IMG/VR virus record: IMGVR_UViG_3300042312_000512
Location: 1-20,177 of that record
Source: a virus
Strand: one strand, 5' to 3'
Length of the DNA: 20,177 bases
The translations under genes were made by a program, and so were the position numbers. The notes under the pieces are model-generated. The model saw only the letters and a list, made by a program, of their open reading frames with translations. It searched no databases and had not been told where the DNA came from. This document shows, piece by piece, positions 1 through 20,177 of the stretch. Within the stretch, counting starts at the first letter, position 1. Every line of letters begins with the position of its first letter.

Positions 1-251
1 ACGGTGACGCAGGTTTTGAGCGCACCTTCGAACTGCTGCACTTCGATGAGCGCTCGGGCCAGTGCCTTCGGCGGCGTGGTGGTGTCGCCCAGCTTCACCC
101 CGGTGGTGGTGCCGAAGCCGATGGTCGGCACATCGCCCTTGACCGGAATGACCGCGCGGTCGGTGTAGCCCTCGTGCAGCACGATGCCGACCAGCGCGGC
201 GGCGGACAGCGTCAGCGCGGCGACGGTGCGTCGCTGTGGTGGCCGGGTCAT
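1..251 (-). CDS. Phage lysozyme (GH24-type endolysin) with N-terminal signal-anchor, partial
   Basis: This is a peptidoglycan-degrading lysis enzyme. Its 3' end lies beyond the left edge, and 83 complete codons are visible. The start ATG at 251 overlaps the upstream holin stop (ATGA) and has GGAG eight bases upstream. Residues 9-26 form a mildly hydrophobic Ala/Leu/Val segment (TVAALTLSAAALVGIVLH) preceded by Arg residues. This resembles the signal-anchor-release segments of R21-type endolysins, so Sec-dependent export and later release from the membrane is the inference. The catalytic-loop signature HEGY (Glu27), then GDVPTIGFGTTTG (residues 39-51), matches family GH24, with Glu27 as the expected general acid. 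The canonical spacing Glu-x8-Asp/Cys-x5-Thr is not met: position 36 is Pro and the nearest Asp is Asp40, three before Thr43. The C-terminal half cannot be judged. Confidence 0.88.
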   Translation of the reverse strand, partial: MTRPPQRRTVAALTLSAAALVGIVLHEGYTDRAVIPVKGDVPTIGFGTTTGVKLGDTTTPPKALARALIEVQQFEGALKTCVT

Positions 252-475
252 CGGTGCATCTCCGGCTGCGCCACCAAGCGGGCGATGGCCGCGCCGATGC
301 TGGCGCTGAAAGCCAGCAGGACGAACACGCCACGCGGCAGCACGTCACCGAACAGCGGCACCACCACTTCCGCCGCCGTGAAGAGGGCCGCGACGATGGA
401 CAGACGAATACTCCAGGCGCAGCGCGCGACTCGCCGCCAGTCGTCCAGCAGGCAGAGCTTCGGCGGGGCGGTCAT
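248..475 (-). CDS. Two-TM holin-like membrane protein (75 aa)
   Basis: This small inner-membrane protein is probably the holin that times lysis by permeabilising the cytoplasmic membrane. Two hydrophobic segments are visible, about residues 23-43 and 47-67, joined by a short loop containing LPRG. The N-terminus holds a DDWRRV motif and an Arg/Trp-rich stretch (residues 11-22). It resembles the DUF7940 group of short phage holin-like proteins, an assignment from memory of the pattern and not a search. The ATG at 475 overlaps the stop of the upstream 100-residue protein (ATGA), and its own stop overlaps the lysozyme start, so translation of all three is probably coupled. The family name is moderately sure, and the membrane topology and lysis context are stronger. 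Confidence 0.75.
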   Translation of the reverse strand: MTAPPKLCLLDDWRRVARCAWSIRLSIVAALFTAAEVVVPLFGDVLPRGVFVLLAFSASIGAAIARLVAQPEMHR

Positions 476-5717: not shown

Positions 5718-8700
5718 TCAGGGGGTGTCGACATCGCCGCGAATGAGCAGCGTGAAATGGTCGTCGGGCACCGACTCCGGCCCCTGCTGGACGGTGCGCA
5801 CCACCCACACCGGGAACTGGCTGCCGATGGTGTTGAAGCGCAGCACGTTGCCCGTGGCCCAGCCGTTGCCCCAGCCGAGCGCGGGCAGGCGGAAGTACGG
5901 CACGCCGGTCGCCGGGTTGTTGGGCGCGCAGTCGGCGCTGGTGTTGCCCGTGGCAATCACGCCGACGTTCTCGCCGATGACCTCGAACGAGGTGCTGTTG
6001 GTCATGCGCACGACCCAGCGCTCGGTGAGCGCGCCGCGATTGGTCACCGTGATCGGGTACTGCGTGTAGTTGAACGTGGCGGTCGCGGCGCTGCCGGACA
6101 GTTCATCCGACCAGCCGCCGTTCCAGGTGCTCTGGTCGAACACGAGGTTCACGCGCGCGAACAGGTCACCGGCCACCAGTGCGCTGGAGACGAAGCTGCC
6201 GGAGACGGGATCGCCGAGGCTTGCCAGCGGGTAGGCGTGGGTCAGAGGGCGCGTGAAGCTGATCTCGCCGTTGATCTGCACGTCGCGCACCACGGCCATG
6301 TCCTCGATGCGGTGCTCGATGGTCACCGGCTGGCTGTAACCGGTGACGTCGGTGAAGGTGACGGTGCCTGCTTCCAGATCGATGGTGTAGCCGGTGTGGA
6401 TCACCGCGCTGTCGACGCCGACCACGCGCACCCTGGAAAGGCGCACCCGCGCACAGTCGACGGTCTGGCCGTTGCTGACCGACGCGGTGATGCGTCCGGT
6501 GTGGCCGACGACAGCAAACCCGCCCGGTCGGAAGATCGGCACGCGGCCGTCGCTGGGTAGGCGGACCGGGTCGATGCCCAGTAGTGCCGCGTCCAAGGGC
6601 AGATAGCTGTAGGCCACGGCGCTGTAGCGCAGACTGGAGGCCGCCACCGGCTCTGGCCGGAAGATCTTGCCGTCGCCGCGCACGTTCTCGGCGTCGAACC
6701 ACGGCTCGGTCTCATTGCCCGCCGCCGTCACCACGGTGCCAAAGCGCACGCGCACGAGGCCGGTGTCGTAGTCGACGTTGCCGCTGACACCGGACGCGAT
6801 GATCGTGCCGTCGATGCCTGCCGTCACGGTTTGGGTTCCACCCACCGCGCGAGCGAACTGGATGGAGAGCGACCCGGGCCGCAGCGGTGCCGCGCCGGTG
6901 CGGAACACATACTCGCTGGAGATGTTCTCGCCGACGGTGGTCACGCAACTGGCGCGCGTTATGCTGTTGGTCGCGCCCGCCGACCAGGACGTGAGCGTGA
7001 CCGCGCCCGAGAGGTAGTTGATCGCGCCGCGCGTGACCCAGCCGCTGGGCGTGAACTCGCGCAGCGTGCCCTGGCCGTTGTCGCCCCAGGGCTGGCTGCC
7101 TGCGATGGCGAGCAGCACCGTGCCCGTCACCACCTGCGCGTTCACGCCGGGCACCAGCCGGAATGACGGGGCAAACGCGAATGTCTCGTTGTGGTTGCTG
7201 GTCGAGCCCGCGCTGTTGTAGCGCAGCTTGACGTAGCCCGACTCGTCGTTAGGGTACATCGAGGGCGCGTCCACGTAGGTGATGCCGCCGTAGTTCAGGC
7301 GGAACATCTGGCCCGTGCCCGCAGCCCAGCCGAGGCGCTGCGCACCGTAGACGGGGCGCGGAATCTTGAGTGTGACGTCGGGTTGAAACTGCACTGCGCC
7401 GGTCGCGTAGTTGACGCTGCCGATGACGATGCCGGAGCGCAGCACGTTGCCCGCACCATCGTCGCGGGCGTACTGCGTGGGATCGACGAGGTTCCACAGC
7501 CCCAGCCCCATCGCCTGAATCTGCTGCAGCGTGTAGACGCCGAGCACGGTGGTGTCGGTCAGGGTGTTCCACTCGATCTCCAGCGAACCCGGTTCGATGG
7601 AGCCCAAGGTCGCGGTCACCGGTACTTGGCCCTGCCCATCACGCGAGGGGTGCGCGAAGGCATCCTCCTGTTTGGGGCCCGCGACGTAATCCACCGCGAG
7701 CTGCGCTCCGACCGGCGGCAGCACATTCGGCGCGAAGCTCAAGAGGTTCTGCGCGACGTTGAGATTGCCAGTGGCACTGCCCGAGAGCGCGCCGGAGGTG
7801 CCGGCGGATGCCGTGCGCGTGCCGGTGCCGCTTTCGTGCGGCCAGCTCACGGTCAGCGTTCCCGGCTGCACGCTCTTGCCCTCGGGCGGTGCAAGCTGCA
7901 AGGCCTGCGACGCCTGCAAGGCGGCTGTCGGTTGCTGGGTTTCCTGCGTCGGCACGTTCCACGTCAGGATCAGCGACGAGCCGACGTCGGGCAGAGCGCC
8001 TAGCGTCACCACGAACGCCCCGGTGTTCTTGTTGAAGGTGCCCGCGCCGTAACTGGCATCGAGCCCCTTCAGCGAGCCGTTGCCGCTGTCCGACAGCACG
8101 TACCAGCGGCCCTGCGCCACGTAGCTGATGGAGAGCGTGCCGGGCTGCGGCACCGGGTTCACCGTGCCGACGTAGGACTGGCTGCGCGACTCGGGCGTGA
8201 CCGCGATCTCCGCGCTTTGCGGCGCGCGCTGCAATTGCGCGGCGGGCGTGTAGGTGACCGCTTTCGCGTTGGACATCGAGCCGGAGTTCAGGCTCAGGAT
8301 GCCGTTGGCGTAGTCGATGGTGCCCAGCGTGCCGCTGGCGGTCTTGAGTAGGCCCGCGTCGTCGAAGACCGTGACGCCATCCGTGACGATGGTGAGCGAC
8401 CCCGGCAGGCAGCCGCCCGGCAGATTGAACTTGGTGCTGGTCGTCCACCCGTGGCTGGCGCTGTAGCTCACCGGCGCGGCCCCCGGCACCGGCAGCCCTG
8501 CGGCCGCGTAGGGCGGCACGAAGGAGATCGGCGTCTCGGTCTGCGCGCTGGGCACGAGCTGGGTGTAGATCGACGCACCCTTGATCGTGAAATCGCCGAC
8601 CGCTGCGGCTTGCGTGAGCGGCACCACGCCAACGTAGGTGCCCGCGTCGGCGACCACGGTGTCGCGGGTCTTGGTGCTATTGCTGGCGCGCGTGAAGGTG

Positions 8701-9326
8701 CGCGTCGCAGGCGAGCCGGTGAAGTCGAAACGCAGCGCGTCGCTGATCGCCACGGTGACGACCGCCGCCCGGTAGTCCTGGTCGGTGTTGTAGGTGAAGC
8801 TGCGCTCGACCACCGACACGGCGGTGGCGCGCACGTACTGCTCCTTCTGCGTGGGCAGTCCTTCGTTCTCGATCAAGACCAACGTCTGGCCGAAGTTGGG
8901 CACGGCGTCGCTGAGGCGCTGGAACAGTTGCACCACGCGCTGGCCCGCGATGTGGTTCTCGAACAGATAGCCCGCCCACTCGGGGCCCTTGTTGAGATAG
9001 GCCTCGATGCGGGTCTGCGCCTGCTCGCGCGTGTCGAAGGTCTTCTTGGTGGAGAACAGCGTGACGCTGACGCGCTCGTCCTGCGGCGGCTCGGCGACGA
9101 TGACGTTGGCCCCGAAGTAGGTGTCGGTGTCGTCGGTGGCCACCTGCACGAAGCTCTTGCGCAGGTTCACGCGGCCCCCGGCGCGGTCGAGTTCGGAGAT
9201 GTCGGGGAAGATGGCGTTCGAGACGCCGTCCGCGATCACAAGGCCGGTGGGCGCGCCGCCGCCTTCGGGCACGTCGGCCATCACGGCGGACTTCAGCAGT
9301 TTCACGTCGCCGGACTGAATCGGCAT
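5718..9326 (-). CDS. Giant repeat-containing tail-tip protein (1202 aa)
   Basis: This very large virion protein lies just downstream of the tape measure gene, where tail-tip or baseplate wedge proteins sit. Residues 1-210 form a distinct N-terminal domain with FDTREQAQTRIEAYLNKGPE (about 97-116) and a helix-strand mix. Residues about 308-863 hold six degenerate repeats (annotated separately), each a PG(S/T)L-x-(I/V) strand followed by a G-x-(I/V)-x-Y-x-x-G turn. Residues about 870-1202 are a further beta-rich tail with VVGHTGRITASVSNGQTVD and, near the end, PVWVVRTVQQGPESVPDDH. No catalytic motif or membrane segment is seen. ATG 9326 follows GGAG at seven bases and is one base after the preceding stop. 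I infer a trimeric or hexameric tip component; no exact family is claimed. Confidence 0.82.
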   Translation of the reverse strand: MPIQSGDVKLLKSAVMADVPEGGGAPTGLVIADGVSNAIFPDISELDRAGGRVNLRKSFVQVATDDTDTYFGANVIVAEPPQDERVSVTLFSTKKTFDTREQAQTRIEAYLNKGPEWAGYLFENHIAGQRVVQLFQRLSDAVPNFGQTLVLIENEGLPTQKEQYVRATAVSVVERSFTYNTDQDYRAAVVTVAISDALRFDFTGSPATRTFTRASNSTKTRDTVVADAGTYVGVVPLTQAAAVGDFTIKGASIYTQLVPSAQTETPISFVPPYAAAGLPVPGAAPVSYSASHGWTTSTKFNLPGGCLPGSLTIVTDGVTVFDDAGLLKTASGTLGTIDYANGILSLNSGSMSNAKAVTYTPAAQLQRAPQSAEIAVTPESRSQSYVGTVNPVPQPGTLSISYVAQGRWYVLSDSGNGSLKGLDASYGAGTFNKNTGAFVVTLGALPDVGSSLILTWNVPTQETQQPTAALQASQALQLAPPEGKSVQPGTLTVSWPHESGTGTRTASAGTSGALSGSATGNLNVAQNLLSFAPNVLPPVGAQLAVDYVAGPKQEDAFAHPSRDGQGQVPVTATLGSIEPGSLEIEWNTLTDTTVLGVYTLQQIQAMGLGLWNLVDPTQYARDDGAGNVLRSGIVIGSVNYATGAVQFQPDVTLKIPRPVYGAQRLGWAAGTGQMFRLNYGGITYVDAPSMYPNDESGYVKLRYNSAGSTSNHNETFAFAPSFRLVPGVNAQVVTGTVLLAIAGSQPWGDNGQGTLREFTPSGWVTRGAINYLSGAVTLTSWSAGATNSITRASCVTTVGENISSEYVFRTGAAPLRPGSLSIQFARAVGGTQTVTAGIDGTIIASGVSGNVDYDTGLVRVRFGTVVTAAGNETEPWFDAENVRGDGKIFRPEPVAASSLRYSAVAYSYLPLDAALLGIDPVRLPSDGRVPIFRPGGFAVVGHTGRITASVSNGQTVDCARVRLSRVRVVGVDSAVIHTGYTIDLEAGTVTFTDVTGYSQPVTIEHRIEDMAVVRDVQINGEISFTRPLTHAYPLASLGDPVSGSFVSSALVAGDLFARVNLVFDQSTWNGGWSDELSGSAATATFNYTQYPITVTNRGALTERWVVRMTNSTSFEVIGENVGVIATGNTSADCAPNNPATGVPYFRLPALGWGNGWATGNVLRFNTIGSQFPVWVVRTVQQGPESVPDDHFTLLIRGDVDTP
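6738..8405 (-). repeat. Six degenerate beta-module repeats in the 1202-aa tail protein
   Basis: Entry strands PGSL/PGTL occur at residues 308, 395, 488, 579 and 817, with a degenerate copy (TGTVLL) near 734. Each is followed by a second signature about 25-55 residues later: GTIDYANGILSL (335), GTFNKNTGAFVV (429), GNLNVAQNLLSF (520), GSVNYATGAVQF (636), GAINYLSGAVTL (767) and GNVDYDTGLVRV (849). Consecutive clear units lie 87, 93 and 91 residues apart. The DNA copies have diverged. The array suggests a string of similar beta domains. Confidence 0.7.
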
Positions 9327-16469: not shown

Positions 16470-16772
16470 TCAGAGCCTCGTGAGCTTGGCGCGTGTTTCC
16501 GAGCCGTCGGCCACGGCCCGGACATCGCGCACCTGATAGGTCACGCCGTCGATCTCGACCACCTCGCGCGCGGCCAGACCCACAAATGCCGACGCCGGAT
16601 ACGTGATCGCGTAGTCGGTGTTCAGGGCCAAGCCGTCGAGGATGGTGTCGTCCGGCGCGGAGAATCCGACCGGATGCTGCTCGGCGGTCGAGCCGCCCGA
16701 GGATTGCCAGCGGCAGTCCTTGAGCAGCCCCACGTTCGTCGCGGCGGTATAGACCTGCTCGACGAGGCCCAT
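16470..16772 (-). CDS. Head-tail connector, lambda FII-like (100 aa)
   Basis: This small protein follows the capsid gene, the slot held in lambda (after FI) by FII, the protein that completes the head and forms the joint with the tail. The C-terminal part REVVEIDGVTYQVRDVRAVADGSETRAKLTRL (residues 69-100 overall) resembles the FII barrel ending, where a strand pair is followed by Asp-Arg-Val-x-x-Asp-Gly. The N-terminal region is MGLVEQVYTAATNVGLLKDC. The start ATG at 16772 overlaps the capsid stop by one base, with GGAG eight bases upstream. No FI-like DNA packaging protein is present between the capsid gene and this one. Homology is modest by eye, so the function is inferred from order and fold pattern. 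Confidence 0.68.
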   Translation of the reverse strand: MGLVEQVYTAATNVGLLKDCRWQSSGGSTAEQHPVGFSAPDDTILDGLALNTDYAITYPASAFVGLAAREVVEIDGVTYQVRDVRAVADGSETRAKLTRL

Positions 16773-17782
16773 CACGCGATCTCCAGCTTCACCAGCAACT
16801 GCGGGCGGTGGCACAGCGGCAGCGGGTTGGCCTGCGTGTGCAGGTCGGTGCCCCGGTCGAACTTGCGCGGTTCCTGCTTCGCGTACAGCGGCAGCGCCAT
16901 CGTGTTGGCCGTCTCGTTGAAGTCGGCGGGCGCGTAGTAGGTGGCGAAGGTGTCCATCGTGCCCAGCGGGAACGCATGGCCCTCGTCCTCTTCGACGAAG
17001 CGGCGCACGCTGCCGCCGGGTGCGGTCGCGCGACCGCGATGCTCCTCGAAGGTGATGCCACAGAAGGTGAAGCCGGAGCGCATGTCCGTGCGCAGCGCCT
17101 GACCGTCCTGCCAGCGCTCGTAGGACGCGATGACGTCGTCGTGCGTCGTGAGCGCCTCGAAGAAGTCCTTGCCGACCAGGACGTGGATGCCGGTCATCCG
17201 TTCGCCCTGCAGGCTGTCCTCGACGTAGCGCAGGAGATCGCGGCAGGCCTTGCCGACATCGAAATCGCTGTCGTGAACGGCGATGTCCCACGCGAAGGTC
17301 TGCGGCGTGATGCCGAACTCGGTGAAGAGGTTGTAGATCACGCTGCCGTCGGCATCGAGGATCAGACCCTTGAGCGCGCCGAAGCGCAGGTGCTCCAGCG
17401 TGATCGCGTGCTTGTTGCGCATCGTTTGCAGGTGCTGCGCCATCACGCCCGCCACCGTCTGCAACTCCGTTTCCGAGCCGAAGGCGCGGATGCCCTGGAC
17501 TTCCTCGGGCAGCACGACGTCGTCGTGCGGGATGTGCGGGATGTGGAACGAGCGCACGTTGCGCTGGCCGCGCACGCCGACCGTGCCGGGCGAGCCCACG
17601 GGCATCGTCGGCAGCAGCGTCAGCACGCCGTTCTGCTGCTCGACGATGATCGAGCGGAAGCGCTGCGGGCGGTCGACGAACAGCCCCATCTGGGCCAGAC
17701 GGTCGTAGTTGTTGGGCAGGATGTTGATGGCGGCGGTCAGCGCCGACATCGAAAACGCCGGGTTCTCGAAAATGTTCTGCAT
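16772..17782 (-). CDS. Major capsid protein, lambda gpE family (336 aa)
   Basis: This is the main shell protein of the icosahedral head (HK97 fold). The N-terminus (MQNIFENPAFSMSALTAAIN, then NNYDRLAQMGLF), HIPHDDVVLPEEVQGIRAFGS (about 94-114) and AVHDSDFDVGKACRDLLRYV (about 173-192) fit the family. So do GIHVLVGKDFFEALTTHDD and a C-terminal APADFNETANTMALPLYAKQ. These match the Phage_cap_E family, and the length equals lambda E (341) within a few residues. The start ATG at 17782 was chosen because AAGGAG lies seven bases upstream and the decoration gene ends two bases before. An in-frame extension further upstream is Pro/Arg-rich, overlaps the decoration gene and lacks family similarity. Confidence 0.95.
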   Translation of the reverse strand: MQNIFENPAFSMSALTAAINILPNNYDRLAQMGLFVDRPQRFRSIIVEQQNGVLTLLPTMPVGSPGTVGVRGQRNVRSFHIPHIPHDDVVLPEEVQGIRAFGSETELQTVAGVMAQHLQTMRNKHAITLEHLRFGALKGLILDADGSVIYNLFTEFGITPQTFAWDIAVHDSDFDVGKACRDLLRYVEDSLQGERMTGIHVLVGKDFFEALTTHDDVIASYERWQDGQALRTDMRSGFTFCGITFEEHRGRATAPGGSVRRFVEEDEGHAFPLGTMDTFATYYAPADFNETANTMALPLYAKQEPRKFDRGTDLHTQANPLPLCHRPQLLVKLEIA

Positions 17783-17784
17783 GG

Positions 17785-18165
17785 TCAGACTCCTTGGCGG
17801 ACGAGGACACCCAGCGCCTTGAGCTGGGCAATGGCCGCCAGTTGTTCGGCGGAGGTGATCGCGGCAGGCCACGCGAGCGCGTGGTCGGAAACGATGGCGT
17901 GACGCACGATGAGCAGGCCGTCGGTGCGGTCGGCGGCGCTCGCGTCGCAGGGCTGGATCAGCACGCCTGCGGCGACCTGCGTGCCGTCTTCGGCGGACGG
18001 GTCGAACTGCTTGACCTTGCCGTTGGCGGTGACGACGCCGACCACCGTGCCCAGCGTCAGGTTCTGGCCGGAGGCGACGGTGACGCGGTCACGCGAGTAG
18101 AGGTTGGGCGCTTCGAACTTGAGCAGATCGCCCAGGTTCATGGATTCGGTGAGGACGGTCGGCAT
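17785..18165 (-). CDS. Head decoration protein, lambda gpD family (126 aa)
   Basis: This is a capsid-stabilising protein that binds the expanded shell as trimers. The N-terminus MPTVLTESMNLGDLLKFEAP, then SRDRVTVASGQNLTLGTVVG (about 24-43) and ASAADRTDGLLIVRHAIVSD, fit the HDPD/gpD family. The C-terminal helix contains ITSAEQLAAIAQLKALGVLV. Lambda D is 110 residues, so this is slightly longer. It lies between the protease/scaffold and capsid genes, as in lambda (C-Nu3-D-E). ATG 18165 follows AAGGAG at seven bases, one base after the preceding stop. Confidence 0.93.
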   Translation of the reverse strand: MPTVLTESMNLGDLLKFEAPNLYSRDRVTVASGQNLTLGTVVGVVTANGKVKQFDPSAEDGTQVAAGVLIQPCDASAADRTDGLLIVRHAIVSDHALAWPAAITSAEQLAAIAQLKALGVLVRQGV

Positions 18166-18166
18166 T

Positions 18167-18511
18167 TCAGATCTCCTTCTTCAGTGCGGACGACTGCGCC
18201 GCGAGGTTGCGGGCGGCGTCGATCAGCGGATTGCTGGGTGCGGGGCGGGTGGCGTCAGGCGCGATGCGACTGATGATTTCGGGACTGGCGTCGGCCTTGG
18301 CCGATAGCAGTTGGCTGCGCACCTTCGCGGGTGCGGTGTTGGCTTCGAGGAAGCCCGCGATCAGGTCGGCGCGACCGGCGAGCGTGCAGGTCTGCGCGAT
18401 CTCGATGGCGTCGGCCACGTTCAGCGTGGTGGCGGCGGACGGTTGAGCAGGATGGCCAGCAGGATCAGCAAGAGGCCGATCAAGAGCAGCGGGGTCGGAT
18501 CGTTCATTCAT
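18167..18511 (-). CDS. Nested in-frame scaffold protein, Nu3-like (114 aa)
   Basis: An internal ATG at 18511 (Met299 of the protease) is preceded by GGAG at 18518-18521 with a six-base spacer. It opens a 114-residue product consisting only of the C-terminal scaffold region: Ala-rich helices such as VADAIEIAQTCTLAGRADLI and a polar, basic end (AAQSSALKKEI). In lambda the scaffold Nu3 is likewise made from an in-frame start within gene C and is needed in excess over protease. I infer the same here; the sequence shows only the start site and the domain boundary. Confidence 0.65.
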   Translation of the reverse strand: MNERSDPAALDRPLADPAGHPAQPSAATTLNVADAIEIAQTCTLAGRADLIAGFLEANTAPAKVRSQLLSAKADASPEIISRIAPDATRPAPSNPLIDAARNLAAQSSALKKEI

Positions 18512-19405
18512 GGAAGACTCCATCGGGTGGTTGCAGAAAGAGCCCGCCCGCGTGGCCGCAGCCGTCGGAGTCGGGTTGGGGGAAACGGATGCGAGAAGCT
18601 GGGTGAGCGCGTCGTCGAAGGTGCCGATGGCGTCGGCAAGGCCCATGGCGACGGCGGCTTGCCCGAAAAACAGCCCGGCTTCGGTGTCGCGCACGGCGGA
18701 GGCCTCGATGCCCCGGTGGCGGGCCACCGTCTCGACGAACAGGCCGTAGATGCGATTCACCTCGCCCTTCAAGAAGGCGTGGGCTTCGCTGGAAATCGGC
18801 GCGTGCGGGTTGAGATCGTTCTTGCGGTCGCCCGCGAACACGGCGGTGTAGTGAATGCCGTCCTGCGCGTCCTTCTCGGACTGGTCGACGTGCATCGCGA
18901 TGACGCCAATCGAGCCGACACCACCGGTGCGCGAGACGAACACCCGGCTGGCGGCGGACGCCAGTGCGTAGGCGGCCGAGAAGGCCATGTCATTGGCCAC
19001 CGCCCAGACTGGCTTGATCTGGCTGGCGGCGTGGATGCGGTCGGCCAGATCGAACACGCCGCCCGATTCGCCACCGGGCGAATCGATGTCGAGCAGGATG
19101 GCCGACACCGCCGGATTGCCGATGGCTGCGTCGAGTTGCGCGGTCAGGCCCGCGTAGCTGGTCAAGCCCGATTCGGCTTCCAGCCCCAGTGTGCGGCGCA
19201 CCAGCGTGCCGTGGATCGGAATGATGGCCACGCCAGGGGGCGATCCAGGCGCTGCGCGTGTCGGCGGCGTGAAGCTCGAAGCAGCGGTCAGATCGGTCAA
19301 GCCGACCCGGGGGCCCAGCACGGCCAGGATCACGTCAAGTTTCGGGCGATGAATCGCCAGCGGCACGCCAAACAGGCGCGCCGCCAAGTGCGGCAGCAAG
19401 GTCAT
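18167..19405 (-). CDS. S49 family capsid maturation protease fused to scaffold (412 aa)
   Basis: This is a serine protease of the SppA/S49 family, analogous to lambda gpC, that digests scaffold during head maturation. Residues 1-60 are a leader with MTLLPHLAARLFGVPLAIHRP. Residues about 58-275 are the protease: IIPIHGTLV, DIDSPGG (106-112), NDMAFSAAYALAS with probable nucleophile Ser143, GGVGSIGVIAMHVDQSEK, and GDRKNDLNP with probable general base Lys195. The 52-residue Ser-Lys spacing matches the Ser/Lys dyad of B. subtilis SppA as I recall it. Residues about 299-412 are a scaffold-like, Ala-rich helical region, probably also made alone from an internal start. The start ATG at 19405 has AAGGA upstream and lies 10 bases after the portal stop. 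A micro-ORF overprints residues about 300-329. Confidence 0.93.
   Translation of the reverse strand: MTLLPHLAARLFGVPLAIHRPKLDVILAVLGPRVGLTDLTAASSFTPPTRAAPGSPPGVAIIPIHGTLVRRTLGLEAESGLTSYAGLTAQLDAAIGNPAVSAILLDIDSPGGESGGVFDLADRIHAASQIKPVWAVANDMAFSAAYALASAASRVFVSRTGGVGSIGVIAMHVDQSEKDAQDGIHYTAVFAGDRKNDLNPHAPISSEAHAFLKGEVNRIYGLFVETVARHRGIEASAVRDTEAGLFFGQAAVAMGLADAIGTFDDALTQLLASVSPNPTPTAAATRAGSFCNHPMESSMNERSDPAALDRPLADPAGHPAQPSAATTLNVADAIEIAQTCTLAGRADLIAGFLEANTAPAKVRSQLLSAKADASPEIISRIAPDATRPAPSNPLIDAARNLAAQSSALKKEI
18421..18507 (-). CDS. Overprinted transmembrane micro-ORF (28 aa)
   Basis: A short frame, +2 relative to the scaffold, starts at ATG 18507, four bases after the scaffold ATG, and ends at TGA 18421. 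It encodes MNDPTPLLLIGLLLILLAIL followed by LNRPPPPR, that is, a near-perfect single transmembrane helix with a Pro/Arg tail. Of its 28 codons 24 end in G or C. Over the same bases the scaffold frame reads GCT GCT CTT GAT CGG CCT and so on, with only two of sixteen codons ending in G or C, unlike the rest of the window. This suggests that the micro-ORF frame is, or was, under coding selection. The GGAG at 18518-18521 lies ten bases upstream. No homolog is known to me and no role is claimed. Confidence 0.4.
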   Translation of the reverse strand: MNDPTPLLLIGLLLILLAILLNRPPPPR

Positions 19406-19415
19406 GGGGAATCCT

Positions 19416-20177
19416 TCAGGCAGTCGACGTGCTGCCGGATGCGTCGGTGGCGACGGCGTTGCGGTTGGGTTCCGCGCTGCCGCCGTCCTTCGACGTGTAG
19501 CGAGCGTCGGAATCGAAGATCAGGCCGAGGTCGTCGGCGCGCTTGTTGTCGGCGGCGATCTCGCGGTCGACGTCCTCGGCGTCGTAGCCGAAGGCCGAGA
19601 TGGCTTCCGAGCGCGACATCAGGCCCGCGCGGATCGCCAGCAGCATCGCCTTGAACTCCTTCTCCGGATCGACCCACTGCCAGCCCTGCGGAATCCACTT
19701 CACCTGCAGGTACTGACGGCGGCGAGCAGGCCCACCACGCGCGAAGCCGGGCGCATCGAGCGCGCCCGCGAGCACCGCCTGCTTCATCCACGCCGCCCAC
19801 ACCGGGCGGCACATCTGATGCACCAGCACGCCGTGCTGAACCATCTCGCAGCGACGCCGGAACTCCAGCATTCCCGCCCGGATGGACGAGTAGTTCACGC
19901 CGGTCAGATCGCCCGTGAGTTGCTCGTAGGTCACGCCCAAGGCGGCGGCGACCGCACGGAACTGCGTGCGCAGGAACTCGCCGTAGGAGCCACCGACGTC
20001 GGCGGGATCGGAGAACTTGATGTCCTCGCCCGGTTCCAGCAGTTGCAGCGTGCCGGGCTCCAGTCCGGCGAGCGCGACGCCGCTGTCGTCGGCAGCGCCT
20101 TCGCCCATCAGGTTGTCCTCCGGGTTGGCGCGCGTGACGAAGCCCGCGAACATCGCAGCGGTCTTCTTGCGCACCAG
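19416..20177 (-). CDS. Phage portal protein, lambda gpB family, C-terminal part
   Basis: The portal forms the dodecameric ring at the head vertex through which DNA is packaged and ejected. Only the C-terminal 253 codons or so lie in the window; the frame is open through the right edge, so the true start is outside. Visible residues about 80-107 (GVTYEQLTGDLTGVNYSSIR, then AGMLEFRRR) are the signature of the Phage_portal_2 (lambda B) family, followed by the typical C-terminal LQVKWIPQGWQWVDPEKEFK segment. The last 30 residues are Ser/Asp/Asn-rich and probably disordered. The lambda portal is 533 residues, so roughly half is present. It precedes the protease/scaffold gene by ten bases, as in the lambda B-C order. 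Confidence 0.94.
   Translation of the reverse strand: MVRKKTAAMFAGFVTRANPEDNLMGEGAADDSGVALAGLEPGTLQLLEPGEDIKFSDPADVGGSYGEFLRTQFRAVAAALGVTYEQLTGDLTGVNYSSIRAGMLEFRRRCEMVQHGVLVHQMCRPVWAAWMKQAVLAGALDAPGFARGGPARRRQYLQVKWIPQGWQWVDPEKEFKAMLLAIRAGLMSRSEAISAFGYDAEDVDREIAADNKRADDLGLIFDSDARYTSKDGGSAEPNRNAVATDASGSTSTA

Follow-up and report, generated by a model that had tools for sequence, protein, structure and literature searches.

Does a reading frame of 28 codons, lying in the +1 frame across the start of a phage head scaffold, encode a protein of its own, and what might such a protein do? A preliminary description of the locus had taken the frame for a selected overlapping gene, a reading supported by the conservation and wobble suppression reported below. 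The frame is very likely a real protein-coding micro-gene that overlaps the start of a Nu3-like scaffold in the +1 frame; the evidence is evolutionary, with no expression, proteomic or ribosome data. Purifying selection on the micro frame is shown by sequence evolution. That the peptide is made and is functionally relevant is inferred from this selection, and its translation has not been observed.

Genomic Setting

The window, meaning the whole stretch of DNA analysed, is a 20,177-base viral record. Its minus strand carries the portal, protease-scaffold, decoration and capsid genes, tail genes, a holin and an endolysin. The head and lysis features are the following.

3..251, minus strand: endolysin, cut by the window end (phrog_7, E 7e-8)
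248..475, minus strand: holin, start at the internal Met at 475 inferred (phrog_1356, E 3e-11 for ORF 248-568)
16772..17782, minus strand: major capsid protein (E-like), start codon inferred (phrog_29, E 1e-66 for ORF 16772-17872)
17785..18165, minus strand: head decoration protein, D-like (phrog_49, E 1.5e-29)
18167..19405, minus strand: host gene of the micro-ORF, S49-type head maturation protease C plus scaffold, 412 aa (phrog_53, E 6e-111; Pfam Peptidase_S49, E 5e-32)
18167..18511, minus strand: Nu3-like scaffold domain from an internal in-frame start, the use of which is inferred from the Met column and the layout in BcepNazgul and lambda
19416..20177, minus strand: portal protein, cut by the window end (phrog_537, E 4e-65)

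The host gene meets the lambda C/Nu3 pattern of an S49 protease with an internal scaffold start, followed by D and E; only the use of the internal start remains an inference. All 103 unique genes aligned have the scaffold-start methionine in the same column. An in-frame scaffold start inside the protease gene is likewise found in lambda C/Nu3 and is annotated in BcepNazgul.

Two further observations concern the gene content of the window. A gene matching phrog_10540 (472-774) overlaps the 5′ part of ORF 248-568, the holin part of which probably begins at Met 475. In addition, positions 5718-9326 of the minus strand encode a protein of 1,202 aa with a full-length match to phrog_6128, the function of which is unknown.

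Position and Composition of the Micro-ORF

18421..18507, minus strand: overprinted micro-gene, 28 codons in the +1 frame of the protease-scaffold gene, encoding a predicted 28-aa single-helix membrane peptide

The product of the micro-ORF is MNDPTPLLLIGLLLILLAILLNRPPPPR, followed by a TGA stop. Its ATG at 18507 lies 4 nt from the in-frame scaffold ATG at 18511. The mean Kyte-Doolittle hydrophobicity of the peptide is 3.53 over 15 residues, the highest among the 191 window ORFs of at least 20 aa, and none of the 70,341 ORFs found in 200 first-order Markov windows reaches 3.5. The preliminary description had placed an ORF with one clean transmembrane helix at 18421-18507, and this held, with the exact coordinates, on the minus strand and with extreme hydrophobicity. 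Its second claim, that the third-position G/C preference (GC3) flips to the micro frame and returns after the micro stop, held as well: GC3 is 24/28 in the micro frame and 5/20 in the scaffold frame at the same place, going back to 19/20 just downstream. The value of about 2/16 that it gave for the scaffold frame is right for scaffold codons 8-23, but becomes 5/16 when counted from codon 4.

The length of the open frame carries no weight. About 94 of 103 codon-shuffled host genes have 22 or more codons without a stop in the +1 frame; since the shuffled genes mostly stay open as well, openness is no evidence for a gene, and the case for the micro-gene rests on hydrophobicity. Hydrophobicity does not survive the same treatment. 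With the scaffold protein and codon usage kept, 0 of 2000 shuffles reach the real value in each of 94 intact genes (94 of 103 unique genes by the rule of that test).

Homologues and Distribution

With the window gene as query, 40 loci were found in genomes and 126 in viral contigs, of which the 80 best were taken. The set was widened by three scans with distant members to at least 259 gene copies, of which 203 are distinct. The protease tree was built from 188 of these; the 15 left out were 11 genes shorter than 1,100 nt and the very distant L128, L186, L188 and L190.

All carriers of the micro-gene fall within one clade of 139 distinct genes (tree support 0.94). The micro-gene is intact in 121 of them, 120 with ATG and one (L052) with TTG, and is lost in 18. 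Judged by the presence of a hydrophobic ORF in the +1 frame close to the scaffold start, none of the 49 tree members outside the clade has it. According to the record titles, the hosts of the clade loci include Comamonas, Cupriavidus, Pandoraea, Ottowia, Hydrogenophaga, Rhodanobacter and Caldimonas; locus L004, for example, belongs to a prophage of Comamonas testosteroni SWCO2. The basal lines L203, L205, L211 and L207 lack the micro-gene, and their state may either precede its gain or result from loss.

Among eight named distant phages, none has such a helix near the scaffold start. The only alternate-frame hydrophobic ORF in these eight belongs to PY54 and is located elsewhere, and in lambda C no ORF of an alternate frame exceeds a hydrophobicity of 1.5. 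Standalone copies of the window type were not found either. A DNA pattern for this type had 58 hits in viral contigs, every one within a C gene, and a regular expression for the peptide gave 200 matches in 313 loci (overlapping one another), 0 of them outside C. The corresponding L034-type DNA pattern found nothing in the 313 loci and, because of its strictness, was uninformative. A tblastn search of phage and plasmid records with the micro peptide gave no match, a weak test given the low-complexity filter of BLAST, and no plasmid record contained a close C gene (E 1e-60). Three micro peptides tested against Pfam, PHROGs and NCBIfam had no profile match above threshold, and none in Pfam. One match below threshold was to a PEP_CTERM domain (E 0.05; the score of 14.5 bits falls short of the cut-off of 16). 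The membrane protein family phrog_502 was considered as a relative and rejected: it matched the window peptide at E 0.036 only, the other two peptides did not match it, and the score fits composition. The case suggests that the profile libraries used here can lack genes of this length when they lie inside familiar head genes.

Two Forms of the Peptide

The micro-gene is kept in two subclades. The window-type peptide reads M(I/N)(E/D)PTPLLLIGLLLILLAVLLNRPPPPR, and the L034-type peptide reads MNPEPLLTLGLALILIALLARIRR and MNPQPLLLMGLALILIALLLRRPPRQ; these are majority residues, and the C-terminal ends vary in both. The scaffold linkers of the two groups are hardly alike, yet the peptides share the majority pattern P-x-P-L-L-x-x-G-L-x-L-I-L-x-A. 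The glycine of the helix is found in 94/100 window-type and 21/21 L034-type sequences, and the alanine seven residues away in 96/100 and 20/21, respectively. Most micro peptides have an acidic start and a basic end. The TGA stop is present in 118 of the 121 sequences scored intact, and a few run past the usual stop position. In L010, L074, L077/L078, L080 and L037, the usual TGA is gone and the frame extends to 48 aa with a Pro/Arg-rich tail.

Judging by composition, the product would be a bitopic inner-membrane peptide of 24-34 aa in most members. Its topology would probably be N-out/C-in, with the acidic N-terminus outside and the Arg/Pro-rich C-terminus inside, and the conserved Gly and Ala, seven apart on the helix, would suit self-association; neither property has been measured.

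A separate observation concerns L201 and L152, in which the protease part groups with the L034 subclade and the micro peptide is of the window type. This mismatch is suggestive of recombination within the gene.

Selection on the Micro Frame

The most obvious objection is that the overlap is merely a low-complexity, Ala/Pro-rich linker, the T-ending codons of which are read by chance as leucines in the +1 frame, the pattern being kept by inheritance. Three points speak for it: the linker does vary in length and composition, the ORF would be open by chance anyway, and the genes of the clade are related. The preliminary description had itself named a variable low-complexity linker as a refuting alternative. 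The codon shuffles contradict it, never giving the helix in the 94 intact genes, and so does the second linker type, with which the L034 subclade retains the helix. The third contradiction comes from the distribution of changes.

In the overlap, scaffold position 3 is micro position 2, which decides hydrophobicity, and scaffold position 1 is the micro wobble. Parsimony changes per codon at scaffold positions 1/2/3 are as follows.

Window-type subclade (98 genes): overlap 4.33/2.17/1.88, rest of the gene 2.54/1.38/7.97
L034 subclade (21 genes): overlap 0.91/1.09/0.41, rest of the gene 0.77/0.43/2.46
Lost genes (17 pooled): position 3 only, overlap 3.73, elsewhere 3.30

Scaffold wobble is thus suppressed 4- to 6-fold in the overlap of the two intact subclades and is unsuppressed in the pooled lost genes. 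In the window subclade, the most variable position of the overlap is scaffold position 1, that is, the micro wobble. The intact lineages are not too young to have accumulated wobble changes, since third positions elsewhere in the gene have undergone 7.97 changes per codon. The window-type set of 98 includes L118, which has a stop at codon 3, and the lost set numbers 17 and not 18. On this evidence, the linker reading is all but excluded. The test proposed in the preliminary description, namely that ATG, stop and hydrophobic pattern be kept while synonymous changes in the scaffold are suppressed, was run on the 139 genes and passed in two separate subclades.

Less clear is the ratio dNN/dNS, as described in PMC7531306, for which a value below 1 would be expected in a functional alternate frame; it was calculated for the micro frame after dropping 1, 1 and 9 genes with indels from the window-type, L034-type and lost sets, respectively. 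It is 0.46 for the window type (97 genes), 0.85 for the L034 type (20 genes) and 0.91 for the lost genes (8), without confidence limits. The L034-type value rests on only 15 NN and 17 NS changes.

Not all of the wobble pattern is due to the micro-gene. In the 17 lost genes, the share of changes falling at position 3 is still somewhat low (0.46 in the overlap vs. 0.61 elsewhere), which means that the variable linker contributes to the pattern. Taken by themselves, the six genes of the L033 clade show 0.29 vs. 0.55 position-3 changes per codon and a share of 0.50 vs. 0.76 (P 0.05, 14 changes). With all 139 genes taken together, losses included, position 3 has 7.0 changes per codon in the overlap vs. 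14.3 elsewhere, and a position-3 share as low as that of the overlap (0.35) is also reached by the lowest stretch outside it.

A second objection is that the target of selection is not a peptide but the nucleic acid or the speed of translation, be it through a DNA site, an RNA structure or a ramp of slow codons. In its favour, T-ending codons, unusual for this gene, cluster at the scaffold start: over the 18 overlap codons, scaffold GC3 is 0.30 in intact genes (n = 120) vs. 0.82 elsewhere in the gene. Against it, the lost lineages keep the scaffold start with fewer T-ending codons (GC3 0.60, n = 18, range 0.33-0.78, vs. 0.79 elsewhere). Furthermore, the RNA fold is ordinary (z -0.21, for the window copy, one sequence only), the freedom to change is triplet-periodic in the micro frame, and hydrophobic residues, ATG and stop codon are all kept. 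We consider this explanation very improbable.

Losses and Decay

Homologues in which the frame loses its hydrophobicity had been named in the preliminary description as a further refuting case. Such homologues exist (18 of 139), and they read as losses of a real gene: 13 of the 18 lack the micro ATG, and wobble is unsuppressed in the 17 pooled lost genes. Helix and start codon go together. The helix is scored in 121 of 125 genes with ATG and in 0 of 13 without it; these counts are not corrected for phylogeny, L118, the frame of which stops at codon 3, is a broken member of the 121, and L052 is not placed in either group. Some of the 13 ATG-less genes may never have had the micro-gene, and related genes are not independent cases.

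L115, L120/L167, L016/L015 and L202 keep the ATG and have prolines or serines in the micro helix, possibly a recent or ongoing loss. In L115 and L120/L167, C stands at micro second positions where intact relatives have T, by which Pro or Ser enters the helix; most of these differences leave the scaffold protein unchanged.

A selected gene that lies wholly within another is difficult to demonstrate. In this case, natural controls are provided by the two subclades retaining the micro-gene and by the lineages that lose it, which makes the evidence unusually clean.

Translation Start

18504..18511, minus strand: overlapping starts ATGAATGA, comprising the scaffold ATG at 18511 and the micro ATG at 18507
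18518..18521, minus strand: GGAG, a Shine-Dalgarno-like site upstream of both starts, spaced 6 nt from the scaffold ATG and 10 nt from the micro ATG

The GGAG motif occurs at exactly this spacing in 121/121 genes scored intact (L118 included, though broken) and in 13/17 scored lost. The motif ATGAATGA is identical in 121/121 of the former and in 2/17 of the latter. GGAG most likely serves the scaffold start, because it stays in 13 of the 17 lost genes, and the micro start likely shares it, which is an inference. The spacer of 10 nt before the micro start is long and counts against this. Entry from upstream in the micro frame is disfavoured because a micro-frame TGA directly precedes the micro ATG. 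In the proposed scheme, ribosomes loaded at the one GGAG would start at the scaffold ATG or, imprecisely, at the micro ATG 4 nt further on, and scaffold and peptide would thus be made together, late in infection.

A programmed frameshift into the +1 frame would instead provide the protease or scaffold with a membrane tail, and no free peptide would be made. Beyond the scaffold start the +1 frame is indeed open, and anchoring in the membrane would be plausible for a protease of the S49 type; cellular S49 enzymes are membrane proteins. However, the TGA before the micro ATG and the invariant ATGAATGA (121/121) would confine any shift to a few codons after it. Moreover, none of the 13 ATG-less genes has the helix, and L052, with TTG, is the sole exception to ATG. 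A frameshift is therefore very unlikely, and separate initiation at the micro start remains the preferred reading.

Comparison with Known Systems

The closest layout known to us is that of gene E within gene D of phage phiX174, where E likewise occupies the +1 frame of a gene for head morphogenesis. The phiX174 D protein is a scaffold, and E is a membrane protein; E inhibits MraY (PMC10229422). Unlike the micro-gene, E lies inside D and not at its start codon, and it is longer (219-494 of the fetched stretch). E is also the lysis gene of its phage, whereas the window phage has a holin and an endolysin. The micro-gene accordingly resembles phiX174 E in layout but is not a member of that type, as the feature of being the sole lysis gene is not met. 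The single-gene lysis (Sgl) proteins of RNA phages are encoded by lysis genes that overlap other phage genes, and their products are membrane-associated (PMC10229422); in contrast to them, the window phage needs no sole lysis protein, and no target of the micro peptide is known. In comparison with lambda C, which has no such hydrophobic ORF in an alternate frame, the +1 micro-gene is an extra layer. In the literature searched (titles and abstract openings, with subscription papers mostly uncovered), no overprinted membrane factor in a head gene of a tailed phage was found. The present case points to a membrane peptide that a dsDNA tailed phage keeps superimposed on its scaffold.

Possible Role of the Peptide

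The preliminary description had offered superinfection, lysis or assembly as possible roles. None of these is confirmed or excluded, and the role is unproven.

The peptide might be a holin, an antiholin or another partner of the lysis cassette of the phage. A short late membrane peptide with a strongly hydrophobic helix would suit this, as would the position of the lysis protein E of phiX174, in the same +1 frame inside a head gene. On the other hand, the window has its own holin and endolysin, and a primary lysis role is unnecessary because the phage has a holin. Nor does the presence of the micro-gene follow the holin type of the window. A near full-length match to the holin ORF was found in 14 of 39 records, comprising 5/11 lost, 9/24 intact and 0/4 outside the clade (records may be fragments), and in a comparison of 25 contigs the holin was found in 5/8 lost and 6/17 intact. 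A role as lysis partner is thus unlikely. In 12 of the 39 records, the best match was limited to the first 33 residues of ORF 248-568, that is, to its overlapped part.

Alternatively, the peptide may help head assembly at the inner membrane, e.g., by docking the portal or scaffold, and would then resemble gp40, the portal chaperone of T4, in its role. Prohead formation in T4 begins with the portal on the inner membrane, and portal assembly depends on gp40 (PMC9958956); the likeness in role is conjecture. This idea is supported by the encoding of the micro-gene at the scaffold start and by its being intact across swapped tail modules in 5 of the 17 intact contigs compared: G015, G021, G023, G032 and G033 keep the head module and the micro-gene with a tail module that differs from that of the window. 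Since the micro-gene is intact without that holin or that tail type, its function seems to need neither. Against a role in head assembly, the micro-gene is lost in 18 of 139 genes, and the eight loss contigs compared keep portal, C, D and E; besides, the overlap itself forces linkage to the head module. Several lineages do without the micro-gene. Assembly at the membrane remains a possibility and is the second-best fit.

No late gene tracks the micro-gene in the 25 contigs (8 lost, 17 intact); nine of them were covered only to base 40,000, and lysis genes missing there mean little.

The best fit, in the absence of functional data, is a dispensable late effector acting on the host membrane in lysis timing, envelope control or superinfection control. 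This is our leading guess and no more; we would place it slightly below even chances, and neither it nor the assembly role has been shown. A bolder reading is conceivable, in which one ribosome-binding site with two starts in different frames would fix the ratio of scaffold to peptide, and the peptide would act in head assembly or in host-membrane control in tailed phages with lambda-type heads.

In L121, the micro start is lost and the scaffold codon still encodes Asn. The function is directly testable, because the micro start can be removed in this way with the scaffold residue unchanged.
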